Assembly (NCBI GenBank): GCA_020725385.1
Contig: DYFC01000013.1
Location: 1 to 58,683 of the forward strand
Source of the DNA: Nitrospira japonica
Lineage (GTDB): Bacteria > Nitrospirota > Thermodesulfovibrionia > Thermodesulfovibrionales > SM23-35
Reading direction: 5' to 3'
Length of the DNA stretch: 58,683 bases
Shown here: positions 13,966 to 30,496 of the stretch, piece by piece
How positions within the stretch are numbered: position 1 is the stretch's first letter
Layout: the number at the start of each line of letters is the position of its first letter
Made by a program: the position numbers and the translations under genes
Notes under the pieces: model-generated
Seen by the model: the letters and a program-made list of their open reading frames with translations, nothing else
What the model was told of the DNA's origin: nothing
The model's database searches: none

Positions 13966-15063
13966 TTATTTTTTCTGCGTATGGCAGGTGAAACAGCCTC
14001 CGGAGCCCCCTCCGCCTGCAACCATAGAAGAATAATCCCATCTTAATAAGTCAGGATAAGGACTGCCATGTGCAACATGACAGGAAAGGCACATAACCAT
14101 ATCAGAGCCAGGAGTTACAGTAGAGCTCGGACCTCCAGTCCAGTTAAAAGTAGTTACATCTCTTGCAACTGGTACCATTGGATTATATGTTGTTGAAATC
14201 GAAGCATATTCCCCTGAATTTGGAATTATTGCATCTGAAGGATGTCGCGACCACGGATTTCCTGCTACTTCATCACCAATCCTCTGGTCAATATGAAAAA
14301 GTCCATGACATCCTGTGCAATAAGCTGTTGTTGTATATCTTTGCGGATAATCCTGTGCATCAAATCCAAAACCTCCATAGTAAACATACCCCGAATATTC
14401 ATTATGTGAGCTTGCTGTTGCACCATAATTCCATTTCTCATGCTCTATACCTATAACACCTTTACCTCCACCTGCAATGTGTCCTGCAAGAAAACGATAC
14501 CAACCCTGTGATGCTGAATTTACAAATTTTGTACCTGTTCCATCATTAGCGTGATGGTAACCTTTTGGGTAACCATTGGTTGTTACCATATGACATTTTG
14601 TACATCCCTGCCTCCCGTCAAGATTAGGGAACCCTGAATTCGAGACTATTTTATTTAAATTTGCATGACAGCTATTTGTTGCACAAAAAGCAAGACCCTG
14701 GTCTCCGGGGGCAGCAGATAAGTTATTATCATCATTGTTTAAAAAAACATTATGCCCTTTAGTGTCATCTATAGTTACCCAATAAAAATTTCCACCAGCA
14801 AGAGTATTTGTGCCAAAAGTAGGTTTAGAAGTTGAGTAAACATAAGGTGTTGTATTAGATCCTGTGTTTATACCAGTATGGCATCCGACACAATTGTTTA
14901 CGAGAAGAATTCCAAATGGACCTCCTGATACAACTTCAACCCCATTTTGACTGTTATGCATAGTATGACAATTAACACATGGTCCAGTTACTTTTGCATA
15001 TACAAAATTATTACTAAGCAATAAAAAAATAATAAAAATTAATAATGCTATTTTAGCTTTCAT
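13966..15063 (-). CDS. Exported seven-heme cytochrome c (six CXXCH plus one CX4CH)
   Basis: The 365-residue protein starts with a clear signal peptide (hydrophobic residues 4-20, cleavage likely after VYA-KV). Heme motifs in order are CVNCH (about 29), CVGCH (58), CATNSCH (127, CX4CH), CTKCH (154), CTGCH (248), CLSCH (324) and CFTCH (357). Extra histidines near them can serve as distal ligands. The first motif sits in GPCVNCHTMHNSQNG, typical of cytochrome c3-like or doubled-CXXCH proteins. It should act in the periplasm or beyond in electron transfer. No maturation or reductase genes flank it, and no close family name can be given. A GGGGGT ribosome-binding site precedes ATG 15063. Confidence 0.9.
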   Translation of the reverse strand: MKAKIALLIFIIFLLLSNNFVYAKVTGPCVNCHTMHNSQNGVEVVSGGPFGILLVNNCVGCHTGINTGSNTTPYVYSTSKPTFGTNTLAGGNFYWVTIDDTKGHNVFLNNDDNNLSAAPGDQGLAFCATNSCHANLNKIVSNSGFPNLDGRQGCTKCHMVTTNGYPKGYHHANDGTGTKFVNSASQGWYRFLAGHIAGGGKGVIGIEHEKWNYGATASSHNEYSGYVYYGGFGFDAQDYPQRYTTTAYCTGCHGLFHIDQRIGDEVAGNPWSRHPSDAIIPNSGEYASISTTYNPMVPVARDVTTFNWTGGPSSTVTPGSDMVMCLSCHVAHGSPYPDLLRWDYSSMVAGGGGSGGCFTCHTQKK

Positions 15064-24847: not shown

Positions 24848-27403
24848 TCATCCGTTATTTTTTTGAATAACTTCTTTTATCTTATGTGAAAGCAATGATG
24901 GGGTTACAGGTTTGCTAAGAAATTCAAGTCCCTCGTCAAGAAGTCCTTTCCGGTGTATAATATCCGCTGTATAGCCACTTAAAAATATAGCTTTCGCATC
25001 GCCTTTTATTTTCTTTATTTCAATGAAAGTTTCCTTTCCATTCAAGCCCGGCATAATTAAATCAATTATGCATAGAAGAATTTTGTCTTTGTTTTCTGAA
25101 AATAGTTCAATAGCTTCCTTACCGTTTTTAGCTGTTAAAATATCATAACCAAAGTCTTCGAGCATTTCTGTAAGTGAATTCCTGACATCATCTTCATCCT
25201 CGACAAGCAAAAGTGTTCCTGTTCCTTTCTCATGTTCGGTAAATATTCTCTCTACAAGTTTAACATCCTTAATGGATATTAAAGGCAGATATATTCTAAA
25301 AGTACTGCCTTTGCCTTTTTCACTATAAACATTAATAAAGCCTTTGTGCTGTTTTATAATACCATAAACTATTGCCAGACCGAGTCCTGTGCCTTTGCCT
25401 ACTTCTTTTGTAGTGAAAAATGGTTCAAAAATTCTTTGACGTGTATTTTCATCCATCCCGATTCCTGTATCTGTTATAGTTATAACAACATAATCACCCT
25501 GTTTACCATATCCATGAGATTTTATGAATTCATTATCCATCTGTAATATATCGGTCTCGATAATTAATTGACCACCGTCTGGCATTGCATCTTTTGCGTT
25601 TGTAGCAAGATTCATTAGAACCTGCTCAATCTGTCCGGGGTCCGCCATTATAAATAATTCGGTTTCTTTAAGTATTGTCTTGAATATAATATCCTCTCCA
25701 ATTATTCTCATGAGGATGTTTTTCATATGAATTATTATTTCATTTACATTTACAGGTACGGGATTCATAATCTGCTTTTTGCTGAATGCGAGAAGATTTT
25801 TGGTTAAATTTGCTGCCTTATCGGACAAATCCAGGATGTTTTTTGCATAATTAATTAAAGGATTGTCTTCCCCGAGTTTCATTTTTAAGAAGTAAGCATA
25901 TGTAGTAACCGCTGTTAATATATTGTTAAAATCATGGGCAATTCCGCCTGCGAACTGACCGATTGCTTCCATCTTCTGAGCCTGAAGAAGTTGTTTATAA
26001 AGATTTTCCTTTTCGATTTCCGATTTTTTCCAGTCAGTAATATCAAGAAGCGAGACAATACTCTGACCGCTATCTGTAATCATTGCTGCGGTCACCACAA
26101 CATCTTTGATGTCACCTGATTTAATTTTAATCCGGGTTTCATAATTTCTTGGAACAGCATCAGGCTGAATTCTTCTCAAATCATGAAATTTTCTTAATTT
26201 ATCTAATTCTTCAACTGGTATAAATTCTGTCCAGCTTTTACCTATTATTTCCGAAGTTGAATAACCTGTGAGTTTTTCAACCTCGCTGTTTATAAGTGCG
26301 ATTTTGGTATCAGCTTCAATTATAAAAGTAGCATTCCCGGTATTCTCAAATATTGCCCTGTATTTTTCTTCTGATTTTTTTAATGCCTCTTCTGCTCTCT
26401 TATGTTCCTCCATATCCCGAAGAATATTATTTTGCCGCCATATCAGACAAAAGAATATTCCTGTGCCCGTTATCAAAATTGTTACTATGACTGTTACTAT
26501 CCAAAAAAGCTTTTTTACAGGTTCGTATATTTCTTCTTTGTCTGTTTTAGCAACAATAAACCATGGTGAGTCAGGAATTTGTTTGATTACTGCAATAACA
26601 GGGTTACCCCTGTAATCAATACCTTCAGCGATTCCCTTTACCCCGCGTAAAGCCATTGCTTCGGGTAATTGCGTCTCTTTTATTGAAAATCTTAATTTCA
26701 ACGCAGTATCTTTTCTGTGCCTGAGTTCATTTAAAAAAACTACGTTTTCATTTTCTCTCCGAAATAATACGGTTTCTGATGTTCTGCTTTTTGTTGGCCA
26801 TTTCTGGATTAATGGATATAAAAATGTATGAGGATTGATTCTTAAAATAAAGATTCCGGCAGGAACATTAATTTTTAAGGAAAATACAGGTATAACAAGG
26901 GTTAGACGGATTGTATTTAAAGCTTTGTTGTAATACAAATCGGATAAGATTATTTTTCGGGATTTAATTGATTCTTTTATTAAATCCTTTGCTCCCTGTC
27001 CTAATGTCTCTTTTATATTAGAAACCGAAAAAATTATATTATTGTTTTTGTCAACAAGAAATATACTCTGGTATTGATGAAGATTCAAGATGCTTTCTAA
27101 GAAGTAATAAAAGTTTTTTTTTGAGGGAATTCCCGGAGCCTTTGAAGTTAAATATTCAATTTCGGAAGCTATAGTAGGATTGTTATAAATAATCAGCGCA
27201 TCCGATAGTATTTCTTTGCGCCAATTTGTAATCTGTTCTGCTTTCAGTTCAGCAATTGCATTTAGATTTTCAAGGCTATTATATTTAATAATATTTTTTT
27301 GTTTTTGATAAAAAACATATCCTGTAGCCCATATGCAGATAGTAAGAATCAGAAAAATAAAGATTAATTTATATGGAACTTTATTTGTTAGAATATATTT
27401 CAT
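24848..27403 (-). CDS. Membrane hybrid sensor histidine kinase (sensor-PAS-HisKA-HATPase-REC)
   Basis: The 851-residue kinase has a first membrane helix at about 12-32, an extracytoplasmic sensor of about 260 residues and a second helix near 300-322. A PAS domain (about 343-455) follows, then HisKA with His at about 490 in GGIAHDFNN. The ATPase domain carries NLATNAKDAM, DTGIGMDEN and GTGLGLAIVYG. A C-terminal receiver has its Asp in IIDLIMPGLNG. Phosphate could pass from His to the attached receiver or to a separate regulator. It lies downstream of a NarL-type regulator gene, and a 19-bp palindrome sits about 45 nt before its start. The ligand cannot be inferred. Confidence 0.92.
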   Translation of the reverse strand: MKYILTNKVPYKLIFIFLILTICIWATGYVFYQKQKNIIKYNSLENLNAIAELKAEQITNWRKEILSDALIIYNNPTIASEIEYLTSKAPGIPSKKNFYYFLESILNLHQYQSIFLVDKNNNIIFSVSNIKETLGQGAKDLIKESIKSRKIILSDLYYNKALNTIRLTLVIPVFSLKINVPAGIFILRINPHTFLYPLIQKWPTKSRTSETVLFRRENENVVFLNELRHRKDTALKLRFSIKETQLPEAMALRGVKGIAEGIDYRGNPVIAVIKQIPDSPWFIVAKTDKEEIYEPVKKLFWIVTVIVTILITGTGIFFCLIWRQNNILRDMEEHKRAEEALKKSEEKYRAIFENTGNATFIIEADTKIALINSEVEKLTGYSTSEIIGKSWTEFIPVEELDKLRKFHDLRRIQPDAVPRNYETRIKIKSGDIKDVVVTAAMITDSGQSIVSLLDITDWKKSEIEKENLYKQLLQAQKMEAIGQFAGGIAHDFNNILTAVTTYAYFLKMKLGEDNPLINYAKNILDLSDKAANLTKNLLAFSKKQIMNPVPVNVNEIIIHMKNILMRIIGEDIIFKTILKETELFIMADPGQIEQVLMNLATNAKDAMPDGGQLIIETDILQMDNEFIKSHGYGKQGDYVVITITDTGIGMDENTRQRIFEPFFTTKEVGKGTGLGLAIVYGIIKQHKGFINVYSEKGKGSTFRIYLPLISIKDVKLVERIFTEHEKGTGTLLLVEDEDDVRNSLTEMLEDFGYDILTAKNGKEAIELFSENKDKILLCIIDLIMPGLNGKETFIEIKKIKGDAKAIFLSGYTADIIHRKGLLDEGLEFLSKPVTPSLLSHKIKEVIQKNNG

Positions 27404-27448
27404 TTAAGCCTATATTTTTTATTTTGCAGAAATTAATTCAATGAAAAC

Positions 27449-27467
27449 AATCAGGAAAATCCTGATT
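27449..27467. promoter_or_regulatory. Palindrome AATCAGGA-N3-TCCTGATT upstream of the hybrid kinase
   Basis: A perfect 8-bp dyad with 3-bp spacer (AAA) lies in the 122-bp gap between the NarL-type regulator and the hybrid kinase, 45 nt upstream of the kinase start. The identical dyad occurs at 29772-29790. This is the symmetric form expected for a dimeric LuxR/NarL-type DNA-binding domain. Confidence 0.6.
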
Positions 27468-27525
27468 AAAACGTATGAAAGTTCTAAAAATACGAGGACA
27501 TTCCGGAAGGGATGTATTTTAATAA

Positions 27526-28179
27526 TCAGGAATATAAATCGGTGATTCCTTCTTTGATTGCGTATTTTGTAAGCCTGGCTATGCTATTAATATTCAGTTT
27601 CTCCATGATCTGTTTTCTGAAAGTCTCAACAGTTTTCACACTGATGCCGAGTTTGTTGGCAATCTCTTTTGTATTATTGCCTTCCGCAATAAGTTTGAGA
27701 ACCTGAAATTGTCTTCTTGTCAGGATGGAATAGATTGATAATTCATTGGAATGTAAAATATTTTTATAGTCTTCGGCTGGATTATTAGAAATTCCCGGGC
27801 TCAGATATACTTTATTTTCAATAACAGAATTTATAGCACAGATTAATTCATCAAAAGCACAGTCTTTTAAGATATATGCTGAAGCTCCTGCTTTTAACAT
27901 GTCTGCCACATATTGTTTCTCGGAGTACATTGAAAGACAAATGATTTTTATCTTAGAATTTGCCTTTAATATTTGCTTTGTAGCGGTTATTCCATTAAGT
28001 TTTGGCATTGATATGTCCATAATGATAATATCCGGAGTAGTTTTTTTTGCCATTTTGATTACTTCTTCACCATTATCAGCCTCGCCAATAATTTCCGCTC
28101 CTTTAAATTTCTCAATCAATGAGCGGAGTCCCTGGCGTACAATTTTATGATCATCGGCAATAAGTATTTTAAGGTTCAT
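27526..28179 (-). CDS. NarL/FixJ-family response regulator 1
   Basis: The 217-residue protein has a receiver domain with phosphoacceptor Asp55 (IIIMDISMPKLNG) and a Lys switch near residue 105 (YILKDCAF). A C-terminal LuxR helix-turn-helix (LTRRQFQVLKLIAEGNNTKEIANKLGISVKTVETFRKQI) follows. ATG 28179 overlaps the stop of the HisKA_3 kinase by 4 nt, so this pair is a two-component system. It is closely related to the regulator at 29855, suggesting duplication. Confidence 0.93.
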   Translation of the reverse strand: MNLKILIADDHKIVRQGLRSLIEKFKGAEIIGEADNGEEVIKMAKKTTPDIIIMDISMPKLNGITATKQILKANSKIKIICLSMYSEKQYVADMLKAGASAYILKDCAFDELICAINSVIENKVYLSPGISNNPAEDYKNILHSNELSIYSILTRRQFQVLKLIAEGNNTKEIANKLGISVKTVETFRKQIMEKLNINSIARLTKYAIKEGITDLYS

Positions 28180-28823
28180 GTGCGCTCTTTTTTAAAGTTT
28201 ATCTCCTGCAAAGGAATTATAATGGTAACGCATGTTCCCATATCTTTGCCTGATTGTATTTTTAATGAGCCGCCGAGATATTCTATTCTTTCCCGGATGT
28301 TAAACAATCCAAAACTGATATTTTTATTTATCTTATCAGAGAGATCTGAAATATCAAAACCTTTGCCACGATCCTTAACTCTAACGAGAATTCTTTTTTT
28401 ATTTATATGTATTTTAACCGATGCTTTTTTAATGTGTGCATGTTTAACTACATTCCTGAGAAGCTCGCGTAATGATTGAAAAAGGACTATTTTAATGTCT
28501 TCGCTAAGGGGAATTGACTTAATATTACTGCTTATCTTAAGAGTGAGTCCATATTTTGTCCGGAATTTCTCAGCGAGCCAGTTAACCGCTGCATCGAATC
28601 CAAGTTCATAAAGTATGGGGGGACTAAGCTCGAATGTTAAGGTGCGTGAGCATAATATTGCTTCATCGATAAGCTTGGTTAATAAAGAAAGTTCTTTCTT
28701 ATGAGGACATCGATACGCAGAAGACTGAATCTCGCCTATTTTCATCTTGATTACAGCAAGGGTATGACTTATGTTGTCGTGTATTTCACCTGCAATTCGC
28801 CTGCGTTCCTTTTCTTCTGCCAT
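28176..28823 (-). CDS. NarX-type histidine kinase core (HisKA_3 and HATPase), frame-shifted from its PAS part
   Basis: The 215-residue frame carries the HisKA_3 helix with His15 (RRIAGEIHDNISHT) and an ATPase domain (LRELLRNVVKHAH, VKDRGKGFD, GLFNIRERIEYLGG). Dimerisation and catalytic regions appear complete, but the frame has no upstream start with a ribosome-binding site. Translation in the same frame runs open back to the A9 tract at 28926-28934, giving TGAIDITEPKKREEE and a coiled linker. That joins exactly to the PAS protein if one A is skipped. It is therefore most likely the C-terminal half of one kinase. Confidence 0.85.
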   Translation of the reverse strand: MAEEKERRRIAGEIHDNISHTLAVIKMKIGEIQSSAYRCPHKKELSLLTKLIDEAILCSRTLTFELSPPILYELGFDAAVNWLAEKFRTKYGLTLKISSNIKSIPLSEDIKIVLFQSLRELLRNVVKHAHIKKASVKIHINKKRILVRVKDRGKGFDISDLSDKINKNISFGLFNIRERIEYLGGSLKIQSGKDMGTCVTIIIPLQEINFKKERT

Positions 28824-28902
28824 TGCAAGTGAAGATGTAAGGGCTTTTAATTGTGACTGGTACCTAAAAATCTCTTCTTCACGCTTTTTAGGCTCTGTTA
28901 TA

Positions 28903-29712
28903 TCAATCGCTCCTGTAATGATATATTTTTTTTTCTCCTATTGTTAGTATGTCGGAGTATATTAGATGTTTAAGAGGCTTTCCCGATTTAGTCTGGGCGG
29001 ATACTTCCATGTTATAAATGTGTTTTTTCTTTCTTAATTTATCGATAAAATATTTTCTTCTTTTGCAGCTTTTCCATATAATGTCCTTGGATGAACGGCC
29101 AATAAGTTCTTTTCTGCTGTATTCAAATAATTTTAGGAAAGCCTTGTTAACGTCAATAAAAATACCATTTTCAAAGTCCGTGATCGCAATCGGGAGTGGC
29201 ATCATTTGAAATATCTTTACAAACTTTTTTTCGGAGTAACGCATAGCTTCTTCTGCCATTTTTTGATTTGTGATATCACGTGCAATTGACTGGAATTCAA
29301 CCAGACGTCCCTTTCTATCTTTGATAGGAACATTATTCCATTGTAACCATCTTGTTGAACCATCCGCTCTTTTAACTTTATTTTCACGGGTTATTATTTT
29401 AGGATGTATGGAAAGATGTTTGTAGAATTCAATTACTTTTTTACTGTCTGTGTTTCCGGATAACAGTGATGTCCACTTTTTCCCGACAAGCTCCTGCTTT
29501 TTTTTGCCAAAAAATTTTGAGTACGCATTATTTACATAGGTAATCGTTGTATCGGGTAGCCATTTGCAAATTGGCTCGGGTTGTGTTTCTATCATGGTTC
29601 GATATTTTTGTTCACTTTCTTTCAATATTGAGAGCCTGGTTCGCAAAATATCCAGATCTTTAATTAGTTTTTCAATATGTTTCTGTCCGTGCTTCATAAT
29701 ATACTTTATCAT
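28903..29712 (-). CDS. PAS-PAS sensor half of the NarX-type kinase, ended early by a frameshift
   Basis: The 269-residue soluble protein contains a short coil, then two PAS domains (about 33-150 and 160-260). The second stops within its last strand at GEKKIYHYRSD. Skipping one base in the A9 run (28926-28934) replaces this with GEKKYIITGAIDIT and continues into the kinase core, so the full protein would be about 511 residues. Whether the shift is real, programmed or a sequencing error cannot be told here. It starts at ATG 29712, divergent from the second NarL-type regulator, with a palindrome between them. Confidence 0.8.
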   Translation of the reverse strand: MIKYIMKHGQKHIEKLIKDLDILRTRLSILKESEQKYRTMIETQPEPICKWLPDTTITYVNNAYSKFFGKKKQELVGKKWTSLLSGNTDSKKVIEFYKHLSIHPKIITRENKVKRADGSTRWLQWNNVPIKDRKGRLVEFQSIARDITNQKMAEEAMRYSEKKFVKIFQMMPLPIAITDFENGIFIDVNKAFLKLFEYSRKELIGRSSKDIIWKSCKRRKYFIDKLRKKKHIYNMEVSAQTKSGKPLKHLIYSDILTIGEKKIYHYRSD

Positions 29713-29771
29713 TTTTATCCGTTTGATTCATATCAAAGCTTAAAAAAGACTCAGGAAATTAGCAAATGTAA

Positions 29772-29790
29772 AATCAGGAATATCCTGATT
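29772..29790. promoter_or_regulatory. Palindrome AATCAGGA-N3-TCCTGATT in the divergent kinase/regulator promoter
   Basis: A perfect dyad with spacer ATA sits nearly midway between the two divergent start codons, 59 nt from the kinase ATG and 64 nt from the regulator ATG. It matches the 27449-27467 site in both arms. A shared operator for an autoregulated NarL-type system is the simplest reading. Confidence 0.6.
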
Positions 29791-29854
29791 GTTATTATGC
29801 AGGCATATTAATTAAGATAAAAACAATTTAAAATTAATTCTTTTATCAAAAAAT

Positions 29855-30496
29855 ATGACGAAGATCCTCATTGCCGATGACCACAAACTTTTCCGTGAAG
29901 GCCTAAAAGCCTTAATTGAGAAAAATCCTGAAATGCAGGTAATTGCCGAGGCAGGGGATGGAAGAACAGCGGTGAAACTGGCGCGCGAATTAAAGCCGGA
30001 TGTAGTTTTCATGGATATTTCAATGCCCGGGCTTAACGGGATTGAAGCAACAAGGCAAATAATAAGCGAAGTGCCGTCTGTGAAAATTATAGCTCTATCA
30101 ATGTATTCAAACAAAAATTTTGTTGTTGAGGTAATAAAGGCAGGAGCTTCAGGTTATATACTCAAAGATTGCCCTTTTACCGAATTAATAGATGCCATAA
30201 ATTCTGTTGCCAGGAATAAGACATATCTTAGCGATCTGGTTACGGATGTAGTTGTAAAAAATTTTATACGGGGTTCCGGAAAGGAAGAATCAATATTTGG
30301 AGTTCTTACTTCCCGGGAAAAAGAAGTGCTTCAGCTTATTGCCGAAGGGAAAAATACGAAAGAGATAGCCAGTATCCTTTATTTAAGCACAAAGACTGTT
30401 GAGACATACAGAAAGCGTATCATGATAAAACTTAATATCTTCAATATCGCTGGATTAACTAAATATGCTATTAAAGAAGGTATTACTCCTGTATGA
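29855..30496 (+). CDS. NarL/FixJ-family response regulator 2
   Basis: The 213-residue regulator has phosphoacceptor Asp54 (VVFMDISMPGLNG) and YILKDCPF in the receiver. Its LuxR-type DNA-binding domain reads LTSREKEVLQLIAEGKNTKEIA. It is strongly similar along its length to the regulator at 27526-28179. It is divergent from the PAS kinase and has no adjacent kinase on its own strand, so both regulators may be partners of the same kinases. Ribosome-binding signal is weak. Confidence 0.93.
   Translation: MTKILIADDHKLFREGLKALIEKNPEMQVIAEAGDGRTAVKLARELKPDVVFMDISMPGLNGIEATRQIISEVPSVKIIALSMYSNKNFVVEVIKAGASGYILKDCPFTELIDAINSVARNKTYLSDLVTDVVVKNFIRGSGKEESIFGVLTSREKEVLQLIAEGKNTKEIASILYLSTKTVETYRKRIMIKLNIFNIAGLTKYAIKEGITPV

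Follow-up and report, generated by a model that had tools for sequence, protein, structure and literature searches.

In the stretch of DNA analyzed here (58,683 nucleotides at its full length, referred to as the window), a gene for a multiheme cytochrome c lies among housekeeping genes, including clpX, infB, rbfA, a GTPase gene, rpsF, and ssb as named by inspection, and this setting raises the question of how the gene product, designated P0001, takes part in electron transfer. In our reading, to which we assign a probability of roughly 0.55, P0001 is an extracellular electron-transfer cytochrome of the OmcS type, probably situated in an OmcS-like heme chain and served by machinery encoded on another contig (C45) of the same genome.

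The cytochrome gene and its product

The open reading frame of P0001 occupies positions 13966-15063 on the minus strand (the initial annotation named no strand), starts with ATG, and encodes 365 residues; the plus strand across the same interval contains many stops. Seven heme sites are recognized, six of the CXXCH type and one of the CX4CH type, with motifs starting at residues 29 (CVNCH), 58 (CVGCH), 127 (CATNSCH), 154 (CTKCH), 249 (CTGCH), 325 (CLSCH), and 357 (CFTCH). The initial annotation had arrived at the same count. More than two CXXCH motifs occurred in none of 100,000 shuffles of the residues, and the long heme-poor spacers that it had placed at about 160-247 and 253-323 correspond to heme-free stretches measured at residues 159-248 and 254-324. 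The N-terminus is hydrophobic, with its best 19-residue window beginning at residue 5, and carries VYA at its end, after which signal peptide cleavage is predicted. The gene is not a chance open reading frame, because a scan of genome contigs confirmed 427 related stretches, of which 75 loci were kept. Judged from record titles, these loci belong mostly to Nitrospirota and Thermodesulfobacteriota, and 14 rows labelled Myxococcota include titles reading only Deltaproteobacteria. When the source genome is counted, a family match is present in 15 of the 41 nearest genomes.

13966..15063, minus strand: heptaheme OmcS-like cytochrome c, 365 aa (ORF call with OmcS sequence and structure matches)
14995..15063, minus strand: putative signal peptide, residues 1-23 (hydrophobic window; helix 2-20 in the model)
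14956..14979, minus strand: heme 1 CVNCH with His36 (CHTMH), the latter aligned with OmcS H16
14878..14892, minus strand: heme 2 CVGCH, residues 58-62 (motif and OmcS alignment)
14752..14754, minus strand: His104, conserved, probable distal ligand (OmcS H110; alignment)
14665..14685, minus strand: heme 3 CATNSCH (CX4CH), residues 127-133, aligned with OmcS heme 3
14590..14604, minus strand: putative extra heme CTKCH, residues 154-158 (OmcS without a motif at that position)
14551..14556, minus strand: His170-His171 pair, conserved in 141 of 141 family rows
14404..14406, minus strand: His220 (HNEY motif), conserved in 138 of 141 rows (Tyr in OmcS)
14305..14319, minus strand: heme CTGCH, residues 249-253 (OmcS heme 4; motif and alignment)
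14293..14295, minus strand: His257, probable distal ligand (OmcS H247; alignment)
14242..14244, minus strand: His274, probable distal ligand (OmcS H257, RHP motif; alignment)
14068..14091, minus strand: heme CLSCH with His332, residues 325-332 (OmcS heme 5; motif and alignment)
13981..13995, minus strand: last heme CFTCH, residues 357-361 (OmcS heme 6; motif and alignment)

Relationship to OmcS

Among Pfam models, Paired_CXXCH_1 matches residues 324-365 with 37.1 bits, above its gathering cut-off of 20.6, and a weak match to Cytochrome_C7 falls below the cut-off. A phmmer search of the PDB with P0001 alone gave nothing significant, and OmcS was not among its matches at E values up to 10; recognition of the kinship by sequence needed a family profile rather than a single-sequence search. 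With a profile of the six paralogues, OmcS was the sole significant match in the PDB (E 8.5e-20; next chain 0.14), as it was with a 77-sequence profile (E 3.6e-29; next 0.022). The AlphaFold model of P0001, for which the input alignment comprised 76 of 109 family rows and P0001, has a mean pLDDT of 77.5 and a pTM of 0.77, and its only Foldseek match is again OmcS (E 2.9e-4, probability 0.99). Since the Foldseek TM-scores are just 0.42 and 0.38, with an rmsd of 10.5 Å, the fold match is to be understood as one of heme core and path and not of every loop. The VIA comparison of the model with OmcS gave a Z of 16.2 and 4.5 Å over 263 residues within model residues 27-364, and for a six-heme relative from Thermodesulfatator autotrophicus, OmcS was likewise the sole structure match (Z 13.6). 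The earlier speculation about a nanowire-type function thus gains ground in that a known filament subunit is the sole significant sequence and Foldseek match in the PDB; the kinship may extend to polymerization. OmcZ is absent from both PDB profile result tables (E up to 1 for the 77-sequence profile) and from the Foldseek matches, an absence compatible with some relation to OmcZ.

When P0001 is aligned with OmcS of Geobacter sulfurreducens (PDB 6ef8, 6nef), each of the six OmcS heme motifs has an equivalent, in the same order, and OmcS H16, H110, H247, H257, and H335 fall on the conserved histidines 36, 104, 257, 274, and 332. The two proteins also share the CHTMH sequence at the first heme, the GHN, RHP, and CLSCHxAH motifs, and the long intervals without heme motifs on either side of the fourth OmcS heme; the spacing, which the initial annotation had regarded as unusual, is therefore not so. 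They differ in that OmcS H147 has no histidine partner in P0001, the P0001 chain is shorter, its heme 3 linker has four residues, and the His-His pair, His220, and the CXXCH at 154-158 are without counterparts in OmcS. P0001 is accordingly termed OmcS-like and not OmcS, because it has seven heme sites instead of exactly six CXXCH. The position of the extra heme was examined in three MAFFT alignments with OmcS. Both that contained P0001 matched site 3 to the third heme of OmcS and left 154-158 without an OmcS motif. In the other, which combined OmcS with six-heme rows alone, the first Cys of site 3 was matched, but the last OmcS heme fell elsewhere. As the alignments with OmcS and among the family rows disagree in part, residues 154-158 are the best reading of the extra heme and not a certainty.

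OmcS H16, with which His36 aligns, is presumably the ligand given to the heme of the neighboring subunit. In the monomer prediction, the P0001 segment 31-39 that contains His36 is poorly modelled, which is expected of, but does not prove, an arm packed against a neighboring subunit. For OmcS itself, one axial histidine of heme 5 is described as supplied by the neighboring subunit (PMC6584659, PMC7096707). Shewanella oneidensis has been reported to produce OmcS filaments (PMC12133095, reference list). An inter-subunit histidine ligand is also described for OmcE (7tfs; PMC9473688), which, together with OmcZ, resembles OmcS in being a multiheme filament subunit; its score with the 77-sequence profile, however, is insignificant (E 0.023).

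Seven-heme and six-heme members of the family

The family set was assembled from 154 ORFs at E 1e-10, reduced to 130 rows after removal of duplicates and of sequences with lengths outside 320-460 aa or fewer than 180 bits, and later brought to 141 distinct proteins with further loci. The CXXCH corresponding to residues 154-158 of P0001 is present in 74 of the 141 proteins and absent in 67. Site 3 reads CX5CH in all 67 six-heme rows, and its linker in the 74 seven-heme rows comprises four residues in 27, three in 24, two in 15, five in 5, and one in a single row, with two rows left unresolved by the pattern (one CGFGCCH and one longer gap); these counts shift slightly with another search expression. 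Because the linker at this one site varies, mostly from 2 to 5 residues, the CX4CH motif highlighted by the initial annotation is not special, and it was rejected as a distinguishing feature on the strength of the seven-heme rows. As judged from the aligned sequences, the mark of the seven-heme group is the extra CXXCH. It also follows that counting CXXCH alone misses heme sites with longer linkers, such as site 3. As an observation in its own right, one orthologous heme site with CXnCH linkers, n being mostly 2-5, constitutes a natural series for studies of cytochrome c maturation.

In the 130-row alignment, the CX5CH of the six-heme proteins was split between both sites of the seven-heme proteins, and in the 141-row alignment it fell on site 3, with H133 present in 67 of 67 six-heme rows and H158 in none of 67. 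On a tree built without the extra-site region, the two heme types are explained by one change, a number reached by none of 500 shuffles, and the branch that separates them has a support of 92, below the 95 mark. His36 is kept in all 74 seven-heme rows and in 60 of the 67 six-heme rows. The seven rows that lack it are exactly P0006 and its relatives, all from genomes of the source organism's family.

A side observation concerns the sequence at this position: in P0006 (L008:9745-10767, contig C45) and its six relatives, LYPG or LFPG replaces TMHNS in 7 of 7 members. A protein of this kind may be a chain-end subunit.

Paralogues and the C45 gene cluster

The source genome contains five paralogues of P0001 that are 35 to 55% identical to it, of which P0003 lies on contig C37 and the other four (P0002, P0004, P0005, and P0006) on C45 (34 kb). 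The genes on C45 are ordered as an MtrC/MtrF-domain cytochrome (7 CXXCH), P0002, a 16-CXXCH protein, a 26-CXXCH protein, a PPIC isomerase, LpoB-like lipoproteins, an 816-residue protein, a lactonase-type propeller, an NHL propeller, P0004, P0005, and P0006. The 816-residue protein, which has no Pfam match, is possibly an outer-membrane barrel, by inspection only. This order is nearly kept in four relatives (G015, G006, G003, and G025) and partly in a fifth (G014). No electron-transfer partner or reductase gene stands beside P0001 within the window, and the set of 26-heme, 16-heme, isomerase, and propeller genes adjoins P0002 and not P0001. The view that the cytochrome has no partner genes and no neighboring reductase thus holds for the window, and the absence of partners does not hold for the genome as a whole, given the C45 cluster and the five paralogues. 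Orphan OmcS-like genes should consequently be read together with distant clusters.

The association with cluster genes can also be followed across other loci, in which such genes were identified through their BLAST matches to the C45 proteins, so that distant versions may be missed. Among family genes flanked on each side by 5 kb or more of sequence, a core cluster gene occurs in the locus of 17 of the 32 seven-heme genes and of 18 of the 22 six-heme genes, and none of the nine cluster genes lies near 11 of the 32 seven-heme genes. In a genome of the same genus (G001), two complete six-heme copies were found, and BLAST located none of the core cluster genes in the 20 kb that were read. As a separate observation, P0003 (L009:9181-10293) is a second orphan seven-heme OmcS-like gene, adjoined, by inspection, by a P-type ATPase gene and response regulator genes.

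The C45 gene set matches the sets described around omcS-like genes in the portions consulted of PMC5539420 and PMC12977616. In Geobacter, an eight-gene block, GSU2500-2493, which includes the 26-heme protein GSU2495, is described as adjoining omcS-like genes and is linked to nanowire maturation and secretion (PMC12977616). The Geobacter relatives OmcT, OmcJ, and GSU2501 resemble the present family in that several paralogues occur per genome, one set beside the block with the 26-heme cytochrome and others elsewhere, like omcJ; they differ in being described as hexaheme, and the consulted part of that source speaks of no seven-heme member (PMC12977616). In bacterial partners of methane-oxidizing archaea, a six-bladed propeller, 16-heme and 26-heme cytochromes, and an isomerase are described as the core (PMC5539420), and the same cassette with smaller cytochromes accompanies the OmcS-like proteins, OmcX, and Apc2a of syntrophic sulfate reducers (PMC10553843, PMC5539420), organisms that are, by title, the source of some relatives in the present set (L036 C00003106, L025 EthSRB1). 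According to the main-text descriptions alone, Apc2a (6-heme) and the OmcX relatives (11-12-heme) differ from P0001 (PMC10553843, PMC5539420). OmcS gene calls in Thermodesulfovibrionia are already in print (PMC8478452). Within the main-text portions consulted of the literature searched, no seven-heme OmcS-like protein is described as such, in Nitrospirota or otherwise. The OmcS-like cytochrome is of an ordinary kind, and the seven-heme form is a distinct variant.

Origin of the gene

In the tree, P0001 groups with L021 (Desulfobacterales) and L025 (from a contig titled EthSRB1) with an SH-aLRT of 97, apart from P0002, which suggests that the gene was acquired by transfer and not by recent duplication. 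A recent duplication of P0002 within the genome was rejected as its source on the same grouping. No empty insertion site can be demonstrated, because the GTPase gene and rpsF that flank P0001 are not adjacent in any of 20 other genomes examined.

Proposed function and alternative explanations

On the preferred reading, P0001 is an exported seven-heme cytochrome of the OmcS fold with all-histidine ligation, encoded by one of the six family genes in the genome. It would most likely be matured in the periplasm by System II machinery, homologues of CcsA and ResB being present in the source genome, and most likely be delivered outside by the machinery that serves its C45 paralogues. Outside the cell, P0001 would probably join an OmcS-like heme chain in which His36 ligates the heme of the next subunit, and would probably carry electrons between the cytochromes of the periplasm and an external donor or acceptor. 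The extracellular heme chain is proposed because CHTMH is conserved and the monomer model leaves residues 31-39 undefined, and by analogy with OmcS, P0001 is possibly a filament subunit. We infer export across the outer membrane, polymerization, the direction of electron flow, and dependence on the C45 genes. Several findings count against this explanation, namely the location of P0001 outside the cluster together with the seven-heme genes and the G001 copies that likewise have no cluster gene nearby, the miss of OmcS by the single-sequence search, the low TM-scores, the model confidence, and the missing partner of H147. Further points against it are that the wire is known for OmcS alone of four Geobacter relatives and that it is disputed whether OmcS filaments take part in Fe(III) reduction (PMC11077965), as stated in the parts of the literature consulted.

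The most serious competitor, which we consider less probable though by no means negligible, is a surface or extracellular cytochrome that shares the OmcS fold without polymerizing. Such a protein would remain monomeric or form short oligomers and would serve as a terminal oxidoreductase or link the conduit to other cytochromes. This alternative draws on the statement that of the four related Geobacter proteins, OmcS alone is known to form a filament (PMC12977616, consulted in part), on the extra heme at 154-158, without an OmcS counterpart and therefore possibly altering the packing, and on the cluster layout, in which the seven-heme gene stands beside the 16-heme gene and the six-heme copies at the other end, an arrangement that suggests separate roles. 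The retention of His36, the equivalent of the presumed inter-subunit ligand, throughout the seven-heme rows speaks against it. It appears unlikely that P0001 is a soluble electron carrier of the periplasm, or the small partner of a reductase, resembling cytochrome c3/c7 or NrfB in type. The N-terminus does resemble an ordinary signal peptide, and weak matches exist to Cytochrome_C7, to the NrfH and NrfB models, and to NrfB chains in the PDB (E 0.039, single-sequence phmmer); but P0001 scores only 22.2 of 134.2 bits against NCBIfam NrfH, 11.2 of 166.6 against NrfB, and 19.9 of 192.2 against DmsE, all far under the curated cut-offs, and 20 of 184 against the other pentaheme-subunit model, while profile and fold point to OmcS and no reductase gene adjoins. 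A role as periplasmic reductase partner, the finding in close homologues that would have spoken against an extracellular function, was rejected on the NrfH, NrfB, and DmsE scores. The source genome also contains dsrA, a NapC/NrfH-type match, and a short Cytochrome_C7 protein. Very improbable, in our estimate, is a redundant copy that was gained horizontally and is expressed weakly or not at all in the source organism; the position among housekeeping genes, the tree grouping away from the cluster copy, and the flanking pair not adjacent in the other genomes examined would fit it, but the reading frame is unbroken, and none of the heme sites or conserved distal histidines has been lost.

Beyond the preferred reading of P0001 as an OmcS-type extracellular cytochrome, the family as a whole might, rather speculatively, represent a kit for mixed filaments encoded as separate genes. 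Six-heme subunits, with CX5CH at site 3, would form the filament body; seven-heme subunits such as P0001 would carry, between OmcS hemes 3 and 4, a side heme for electron entry or exit or for the branching of wires; and P0006-type subunits, in which the His36 donor is lost in 7 of 7, would end the chain with no extension from that side. If so, filament ends and charging points would be separate genes. The seven-heme group and its donor-less sister group in the same clusters offer specific proteins on which the start, end, and charging of wires can be studied; how the two ends of OmcS wires are capped is called unclear in a review consulted in part (PMC7096707).

Additional sequence features

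Repeat arrays are present on C45 at L008 220-360, 2627-2955, 4476-4628, 5030-5088, and 9675-9740, between or at the starts of the cytochrome cluster genes, and consist of 7-base (GCTCTTT-like) and 9-base units; within the source genome, one exact 22-base version of the 7-base unit is confined to C45, at three overlapping places. No such arrays were found within the window. At 24848-30496, the window contains a run of hybrid histidine kinase, PAS, and LuxR-type response regulator genes, identified by inspection.
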